This document shows positions 30,145-32,222 of a DNA stretch of 64,000 bases, in pieces; within the stretch, counting starts at the first letter, position 1, and each line of letters starts with the position of its first letter. The position numbers and the translations under genes were made by a program. Origin of the DNA: Pseudomonadota bacterium. Its GTDB lineage: Bacteria; Desulfobacterota; Desulfarculia; Desulfarculales; Desulfarculaceae. Below the pieces are notes generated by a model, which searched no databases, was not told the origin of the DNA, and saw nothing but the letters and a program-made list of their open reading frames with translations. Location of the stretch: NCBI GenBank assembly GCA_018819925.1, contig JAHJPG010000048.1:1-64000 (forward strand), written 5' to 3'.

Positions 30145-30909
30145 ATGCGCCTACTTCTCACCAACGACGATGGGGCCTACGCCCCGGGCCTGAAGGCCCT
30201 GCACCAGGCCCTGGCCACCGAGCACGAGGTGTGGGTGGTGGCCCCGGAAACCGAGCAGTCGGCGGTGGGCCACGCCATCACCCTGGCCGATCCCATCAGG
30301 GTGCATCCCCTCACCTCCGAAAGCGGCATGCAGGGCTGGGCGGTTACCGGAACCCCGGCGGACTGCGTGAAGCTGGCCGTGCGCCAGCTTTTGCCCCAGC
30401 CGGTGCAGATGGTGATCTCGGGCATCAACCAAGGGGCCAACGTGGGCGTGAACCTGCTCTATTCGGGGACGGTCAGCGCGGCCACCGAGGGAGCCATCTT
30501 GGGGCTGGGGGCCATCAGCGTTTCCCTGGCCACTCACCACCCGGCCGACTTCAGCTTGGCCGCCAGGGTCACCGCCCGCCTGGTGGCGGCTTGGCCGGGG
30601 CTGTCCGTGCCTCCGGGGGTGTCACTGAACGTCAATGTCCCCGCCTTGGCCCCCGGCCAAGTCAAGGGGGTGCGCTTCACCCGCCAGTCCACCGCCTCCA
30701 TGCGGGAAACCTTTCTGGAGCGCCGCGATCCCAGGGGCCACGTGTATTACTGGCAGGCCGGCGAGGAGATGAGCACCGAGGGCGACGGCCACACCGACTA
30801 CCCCGCCCTGCTGGAGGGCTATGTGACCATCACCCCGGTGGGCCACGATCTTACCCATGACGCGGCCTTGGCGTCACTGGGGCGCCAGAATCCGGACCTG
30901 GGCCTGTGA
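30145..30909 (+). CDS. surE: 5'/3'-nucleotidase SurE
   Basis: MRLLLTNDDGAYAPGLKALHQAL...VVAPETEQSAVGHAITL...VISGINQGANVGVNLLYSGTVSAATEG. Confidence 0.97.
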   Translation: MRLLLTNDDGAYAPGLKALHQALATEHEVWVVAPETEQSAVGHAITLADPIRVHPLTSESGMQGWAVTGTPADCVKLAVRQLLPQPVQMVISGINQGANVGVNLLYSGTVSAATEGAILGLGAISVSLATHHPADFSLAARVTARLVAAWPGLSVPPGVSLNVNVPALAPGQVKGVRFTRQSTASMRETFLERRDPRGHVYYWQAGEEMSTEGDGHTDYPALLEGYVTITPVGHDLTHDAALASLGRQNPDLGL

Positions 30910-30994
30910 ACCCCTTGGGGATTAGGAGCCGGCGCCCCGCGTGGGGCTTTACACACCTAAATCCACGTCAATTTTAGGATATCAGGCGTGGGTA

Positions 30995-31019
30995 ATTATT
31001 CCCCACGGTGGGGGATAAT
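30995..31019. promoter_or_regulatory. 25-bp palindrome, candidate enhancer-binding-protein site
   Basis: attattccccac-g-gtgggggataat: 12-bp arms, one wobble, 1-nt centre; ~140 bp upstream of a sigma-54-type promoter. Confidence 0.5.
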
Positions 31020-31157
31020 GCACCATTAAGCGCCACGCTTGCAATGATTGTGAAATAATTTTCTACCGCGCCTACTGCTCCAGCCCAAACCGTTATGTGC
31101 CTTGATGATCGTGGCTCCCGAAGGGACGCCGGCAAAAACGTCAGATAAAAAATAAAT

Positions 31158-31173
31158 TGGCACGCAATTTGCT
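31158..31173 (+). promoter_or_regulatory. Sigma-54 (-24/-12) promoter
   Basis: TGGCAC-gcaat-TTGCT matches the -24/-12 consensus TGGCAC-N5-TTGCW; 60 nt upstream of the small ORF at 31233. Confidence 0.7.
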
Positions 31174-31232
31174 AATAATAGCGGTCAACGACTAACCATC
31201 GCCTACCCAATAAAGGCGACAGGAGAGATAAA

Positions 31233-31412
31233 ATGCCCGCATACGACTATGTTTGCAGCAACTGTGAAGCCAGCGAGCAACGCATCGGAGGTCTGGACGA
31301 CCACACTGTTATTTGCGACCGGTGCGGCCAGGTGATGCTGCGTCAAGGCGACCTCGACACTCTGCTGGCTTCCTACTCTCAGGTGCAGCAAAAGGCCGAC
31401 GGTCTGGGCTAA
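31233..31412 (+). CDS. 59-aa zinc-ribbon (FmdB-like) protein
   Basis: MPAYDYVCSNCEASEQRIGGLDDHTVICDRCGQVMLRQGDLDTLLASYSQVQQKADGLG*; strong SD aggagagataaaATG; below the ORF-track cutoff. Confidence 0.75.
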   Translation: MPAYDYVCSNCEASEQRIGGLDDHTVICDRCGQVMLRQGDLDTLLASYSQVQQKADGLG

Positions 31413-31463: not shown

Positions 31464-32222
31464 ATGAAGCGGCCGGCACGCCCGGATTTGCGTAGCGGTC
31501 TGCAAGAGGCCTCATCCCGAGGCCTCTTCGTTAATTTAGAGCAGGCGTATCAAGATCTTCCCGCCACCACCTGCGCCCGGCGGGGCGCATGCTGCGGGCT
31601 GTTGCCCCCGGTGTTCACGGTGGAGTTGGCCGCCTGGCTGCACCGCCTGCCCGCAACGCCCTATAAAGAACGCGCGGCCCAGGCCAGGCGCCTAGTGGAG
31701 CACTTTCTGGGCAACGCGGCCCAGCGCCGGGCATGCCCTTGGGCCCTCGCAGAGGCCTGCGCCATTTACCAAGACCGCTTCCTGGGTTGCCGCACCTACG
31801 GCCTTTGGTCGCGGGAGGCATATCAAACCCGCGCCGCCCAAGCCGCCCAGGGGCAGGAAGCCGTGGCCGCCGCTTGGCGCGGCCTGGGGGTGGAGTTGCC
31901 CTCCGAGGTGCTGGCCCCGGCTCCACCCTATTGCCTGCAAGTCAAGCCGCTGACAGGCCCCGTCCCGGATGACGCCTTCATCGAAGGCTTGGAGGAGCGC
32001 GCCCTGGAGTTGAGCCGTGATCTGCCCCAGAGCCTGGGGCGCCTGCACGACTTTGGCGGAGACATCTCCTTTGCCGTGGCCGCCCTGGCCCTGGGCCAAC
32101 CTCAGGCCCTGAGTCTGAAGGTGGCCGTCACCAAAGCCCTGCTGGCCGGCGATAAGGAAGAGGCCGCCGAACTGCTGGCCAAGGCCGGCACCGCCGCCAA
32201 GCGCTGGGCCCAGTCCTTTTAG
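31464..32222 (+). CDS. YkgJ-like cysteine-cluster protein
   Basis: TTCARRGACCGLLPP...RRACPWALAEACAIYQDRFLGCRTYG; start uncertain because the N-terminal codons overlap a hairpin. Confidence 0.7.
   Translation: MKRPARPDLRSGLQEASSRGLFVNLEQAYQDLPATTCARRGACCGLLPPVFTVELAAWLHRLPATPYKERAAQARRLVEHFLGNAAQRRACPWALAEACAIYQDRFLGCRTYGLWSREAYQTRAAQAAQGQEAVAAAWRGLGVELPSEVLAPAPPYCLQVKPLTGPVPDDAFIEGLEERALELSRDLPQSLGRLHDFGGDISFAVAALALGQPQALSLKVAVTKALLAGDKEEAAELLAKAGTAAKRWAQSF
31504..31528 (+). terminator. Hairpin, possible terminator of the 59-aa gene
   Basis: aagaggcct-catcccg-aggcctctt: perfect 9-bp stem, weak T-tract (tcgttaattt). Confidence 0.45.

Follow-up and report, generated by a model that had tools for sequence, protein, structure and literature searches.

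Small zinc ribbons of the FmdB type abound, and hardly any function is known for them. In Mycobacterium tuberculosis, Ruc (Rv0991c), with cysteines 8, 11, 29 and 32 and one zinc, is an oxidation-activated, redox-regulated chaperone, and its chaperone activity requires a long disordered C-terminal tail (PMC7448276). Zrd of Pseudomonas aeruginosa is a zinc-ribbon ORF missed by annotation, which was found via the site of its regulator and is induced by Zn and Cd (PMC12301328). In Desulfovibrio, where one-target sigma54 regulons are described, most activators control one to four operons via conserved upstream sites, and the main text of that study mentions neither a TGGGG/CCCC site nor an FmdB target (PMC4641369). 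The type of control described below is well known; the regulon and its target appear undescribed in the literature covered by our search, which was not exhaustive.

The window analysed here, a 64-kb stretch of DNA, belongs to a Desulfarculaceae-type genome of 4.03 Mb in 145 contigs. It harbours the ORF of an FmdB-type zinc-ribbon microprotein of 59 aa (31233-31412, forward strand, ATG to TAA), preceded on the same strand by the Shine-Dalgarno sequence GGAGA (31222-31226), which is invariant in 8 congeners. An ORF of this length with two CxxC pairs and a Shine-Dalgarno sequence had been predicted in an earlier note made from the DNA letters, and both were found at these positions. The gene can easily be missed by gene annotation. 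Similar to Ruc as it is described, the microprotein is built of one small zinc ribbon followed by a C-terminal tail, and its cysteines stand at positions 8, 11, 28 and 31 (C8xxC11 and C28xxC31). The tail of Ruc is long and disordered, whereas that of the microprotein is short and predicted to be helical; the predicted fold consists of three strands and a C-terminal helix at residues 41-55, with a mean pLDDT of 69.8 and low confidence at residues 52-59. Ruc is also co-regulated with chaperone genes in M. tuberculosis, whereas sigma54 control in a sulfate-reducer-type lineage is predicted for the microprotein. Zrd differs by its MerR-family regulator CadR and by the possession of two ribbons instead of one.

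The four cysteines are invariant in 22 aligned sequences, which display the two CxxC pairs of FmdB proteins. Within the genus dN/dS is about 0.06-0.15, synonymous changes far exceeding amino-acid changes, and this substitution pattern indicates that the ORF is under purifying selection. The microprotein scored 30.6 bits against TIGR02605 (cut-off 31.3) and 30.8 bits against PF09723, Zn_ribbon_8 (cut-off 34.4), just below both curated cut-offs. Therefore, it is described here as FmdB-type and not filed as a member of either model; all 22 aligned members match TIGR02605. The N-terminal MPxYxYxCxxC...CxxC ribbon is common to the microprotein and the FmdB-type proteins of PF09723 and TIGR02605, whereas the core GIDDHTVIC or GLDDHTAIC, an LLASY or PYF motif conserved at the C-terminus and the sigma54 promoter set the microprotein and its relatives apart. 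They form a distinct, divergent FmdB-type zinc-ribbon subfamily. A structure search returned no match at E <= 0.001, and a PDB sequence search gave nothing significant. In the viral contigs searched, only remote FmdB-type matches were detected.

Upstream of the ORF, a -24/-12 element of the sigma-54 class (TGGCAC-N5-TTGC, with the GG-N10-GC core) is present as TGGCACGCAATTTGCT at 31158-31173 on the forward strand, 75 bp before the ORF start, with a predicted transcription start near 31184. The region yielded no sigma-70-like promoter. TGGCACGCAATTTGCT is the sole exact TGGCAC-N5-TTGCW in the window. The whole genome contains twelve exact copies against two of a reversed control pattern; an exact match is thus more probably real than spurious. 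Sigma54-like words also arise by chance, as seen from five window matches with one mismatch where 3.6 are expected, and the element could in principle be a fortuitous match before an ordinary small ORF. This explanation is refuted by positional conservation across families, and we regard its probability as negligible. The -24/-12 matrix was scored 40-90 bp before the ATG in 38 members from the Desulfarculaceae, other families of the class and two further families of the phylum, leaving aside L067, a copy without the element, and L073, whose locus is cut by a contig end. The element was found in 38 out of 38 loci, 43-79 bp before the ATG, with a score of at least 11.4 each, a level reached by shuffled sequences at a rate of 1.4% per sequence. 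The near-ideal promoter proposed in the earlier note at 31158 is in agreement with these results, and the conservation of promoter and ORF in relatives, which the note had named as a check, proved strongly positive. These comparisons strongly support the view that the microprotein gene is real, deeply conserved and under sigma54 control.

Further upstream, two putative activator sites of the form TGGGG-N7-CCCCA are arranged in tandem. Site 1, TGGGTAATTATTCCCCA, occupies 30989-31005, 169 bp upstream of the -24 element, and the more degenerate site 2, TGGGGGATAATGCACCA, occupies 31009-31025, 149 bp upstream of the -24 element and 20 bp from site 1. The 25-bp palindrome ATTATTCCCCACGGTGGGGGATAAT (30995-31019), about 140 bp upstream of the promoter according to the earlier note and interpreted there as the activator site, is real and had no chance matches in 100 shuffles with up to three mismatches. 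It is, however, composed of the right half of site 1 and the left half of site 2. Since the gap between the sites differs between genera, the palindrome is a junction effect and not a conserved register; the unit conserved in the upstream alignment is TGGGG-N7-CCCCA, in two tandem copies in the genus. Inverted repeats at this distance, about 100-200 bp upstream, correspond to the enhancer arrangement of sigma-54 promoters.

Site 1 is kept in 18 out of 18 Desulfarculaceae loci, its distance to the -24 element being 155-171 bp (168-171 bp within the genus), and in site 2 of the 8 congeners GGG, TGC and CCAT are invariant. A TTGTGAA block (31048-31054, forward strand) is found in 15 out of the 18 family loci, in those at 59-62 bp from the start of site 1, and is invariant among the congeners. 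Nearly all invariant intergenic runs in these 8 congeners correspond to the sites, the TTGTGAA block, the -24/-12 element and the Shine-Dalgarno sequence. The pattern alone is not rare, with four one-mismatch occurrences in the window against 10.8 expected, and the significance of the sites derives from their conservation and position. Most of the loci behind the site matrix are these same Desulfarculaceae loci, and L027 and L079 also entered it, so the scores of these loci are not independent; independent support comes from the fixed position, the invariant columns and clear sites in distant families (L079, TGGGGAAATTCTCCCCA, and L027, TGGGGAATTTCGCCCCA, from two such families; also L075). 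In several class-level and f12 or f56 loci that retain the -24/-12 element, a clear site was not found.

The exact site pattern, which misses one-mismatch sites such as those of the window itself, has 11 separate occurrences in ten Desulfarculaceae genomes. Five of them are upstream of the microprotein gene and one is close behind it, while the remaining ones are mostly within coding sequence. A narrow regulon is only indicated by this distribution. In L093 a second perfect site, TGGGGCATTTTGCCCCA (1501-1517; G008:C1:366174-366190), follows the microprotein gene at a distance of about 320 bp, without an adjoining sigma54 promoter. L095 possesses a perfect site (1501-1517; G021:C86:3767-3783) 3' of a microprotein gene that has the -24/-12 element and no upstream site; this downstream site may be due to chance, as it is inside a long ORF.

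The nearest named loci belong to Desulfarculaceae MAGs, Desulfarculus sp. and Desulfocarbo indianensis. A protein search in 60 relatives revealed the gene in each of the seven congeners included, in most Desulfarculaceae and in other families of the class. The profile search in 395 genomes of the phylum detected true members in 27 genomes, of which 10 belong to the family of the source genome, 12 to f12 and 5 to f56, and six genomes had general FmdB-like matches only. Second copies without a -24/-12 element are present in f12 and f56 genomes (L136, L144, L145, L149, L153 and L168). Six paralogs without sigma54 promoter (L136, L145, L149, L164, L165 and L166) are situated less than 6 kb from feoB, several of them also near a DUF2325 gene; Pfam confirmed FeoB beside L165 and DUF2325 beside L145. 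Neither the paralogs beside feoB nor the general FmdB proteins have the promoter, and the site is missing from almost all of them. Typically, a genome would thus possess one sigma54-driven copy, and the paralogs, several of them beside feoB, would lack sigma54 drive. Their gene neighbourhood suggests that the feoB-linked paralogs are an iron-related branch of the microprotein family.

This linkage of the six paralogs to feoB favours a role in metal homeostasis, in which metal stress would induce the microprotein and the protein would bind iron or zinc as a buffer or sensor, comparable in role to the CadR-controlled Zrd or the ZraR system. The zinc-ribbon ORF Zrd, induced by Zn and Cd, provides a precedent (PMC12301328), and the ORF downstream of the microprotein (31464-32222, forward strand, 252 aa) resembles the zinc/iron-chelating CxxCxxCC family by a weak match below the Pfam cut-off. 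However, the sigma54-driven copies are not near metal genes. Their neighbours are surE, which lies upstream in the window (30145-30909, forward strand; recognised by sequence and, in the window, also by Pfam) and is conserved in the class, and in the f12 and f56 loci a divergent pyruvate kinase gene recognised by sequence. Moreover, a protein with one Cys4 site only would be a poor metallothionein. Metal homeostasis is therefore a possible role, on the unlikely side.

Regarding the activator, the source genome has 45 PF00158 matches in 4 Mb, and by this count its sigma54 network is rich. The activators of this genome were compared with those of three genomes possessing the microprotein gene (G009, G399 and G137) and one lacking it (G041). 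Only the orphan NtrC-type response regulator G000:C56:5038-6399, of receiver (REC)-AAA+-Fis architecture, had a reciprocal best hit in all three and was missing from G041. G012, the Desulfarculaceae genome without the microprotein gene, also lacks its ortholog. With the ortholog line drawn at a bit-score gap near 480, plus four truncated copies, orthologs were present in 25 out of 27 genomes with the microprotein gene and in 24 out of 368 without it (Fisher p 8e-24, a value that overstates independence because the positives are essentially three clades). The two gene-bearing genomes without an ortholog are G220 and G365. The HTH helix GIDRKTLR is invariant in the 29 regulator orthologs compared and unique among the 43 EBP frames read in the genome. 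From this pattern of presence and absence, G000:C56:5038-6399 is likely the activator of the microprotein gene.

The regulator gene is not adjacent to its presumed target, and no activator gene was found within the 1.5-8 kb flank of the microprotein loci scanned. Such an unlinked target would also fit the binding of another of the roughly 45 sigma54 activators, one conserved in genomes with and without the gene. L104, L105, L106 and L109 are conserved in all microprotein genomes compared, but they are also present in G041. Against such an activator stands the distribution of G000:C56:5038-6399 in the positive genomes, G041 and G012, and we consider the involvement of another activator a possibility that falls clearly short of an even chance. 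The runner-up activator, G000:C139 (L108), initially had a good profile and occurs in 22 of the 27 genomes that possess the gene and in 55 of the 368 that do not; it was rejected as it is absent from the gene-bearing G002, G009, G013 and G015. Among the NCBIfam models, ZraR was one of the better-scoring for the candidate regulator, which would suit a metal role, yet the score is far below its cut-off.

No strong activator site was found at the gene of the candidate regulator itself. Autoregulation was likewise discarded, since none of the 30 activator loci scanned in the genome carries a strong site. The regulator is present and the microprotein not detected in 24 genomes, including G318, G209, G075, G112, G147, G175 and G202. 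In seven regulator loci from genomes without the microprotein, neither a microprotein nor a clear site adjoins the regulator gene.

Taken with the conservation of promoter, sites and ORF in relatives, which supports the sigma-54-regulated product expected in the earlier note, an RpoN/NtrC-type switch driving a redox- or metal-switched microprotein, with G000:C56:5038-6399 as the probable activator, is in our judgement the probable arrangement. In this switch the regulator would be phosphorylated in response to a signal, bind the tandem pair of TGGGG-N7-CCCCA sites located roughly 150-170 bp upstream, and loop to RNA polymerase-sigma54 at the -24/-12 element. RpoN-dependent transcription would then start near 31184 and cover the microprotein gene and perhaps also the CxxCxxCC gene that follows. 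The orphan REC-AAA+-Fis protein is the most likely regulator for these steps. The product is predicted to bind one metal ion via C8, C11, C28 and C31 and carries a short, conserved, predicted-helical C-terminus. Our best guess for its function, which we rank first, is a stress- or signal-induced, redox- or metal-switched small effector, for example a Ruc-like holdase; among similar proteins, Ruc is the best studied.

Many proteins that bind RNA polymerase contain zinc ribbons. The microprotein could accordingly act on the transcription machinery and give feedback in the switch, for example if it stabilised or modulated sigma-54 or RNA polymerase. The Helicobacter protein FlgZ (HP0958), which has a zinc-ribbon domain, is reported to protect RpoN from turnover (PMC3372290). 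However, the microprotein has no sequence link to FlgZ (DUF164), the structure search provided no connection either, and the gene is absent from many activator-rich relatives such as G041, with 37 PF00158 matches. We therefore hold such an action to be improbable. Returning to the small effector, we tentatively propose that a dedicated orphan sigma54 regulator with a single microprotein effector, a redox- or metal-switched chaperone or modulator, may represent an old, nearly one-gene output across Desulfobacterota families. With the deeply conserved sigma54 switch, expression of this FmdB-type subfamily can be approached through its dependence on a signal, through a candidate regulator and through a short binding site, which makes the role of the subfamily directly testable in a cultured relative. 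Regulatory conservation can also expose real microproteins missed by ORF length filters.

The extent of the transcript may differ between relatives. The earlier note had described a lone microprotein with a downstream hairpin. A strong, perfect hairpin indeed exists at 31504-31528 on the forward strand (folding z -2.6), but it is inside the first approximately 20 codons of the downstream ORF, has a poor T-run and is imperfect in all but the closest relatives; its function as a terminator is doubtful. The gap between the microprotein and this ORF is 51 nt and shows no more stable folding than shuffles do (z -0.4). A CxxCxxCC-like homolog follows the microprotein in 8 out of 13 loci examined, which leaves the description as lone uncertain for part of the family, and to judge by this gene order both genes may share a transcript. 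In G008 a strong hairpin with seven T is present behind the microprotein gene, and the gene is therefore probably transcribed there as a single-gene transcript.
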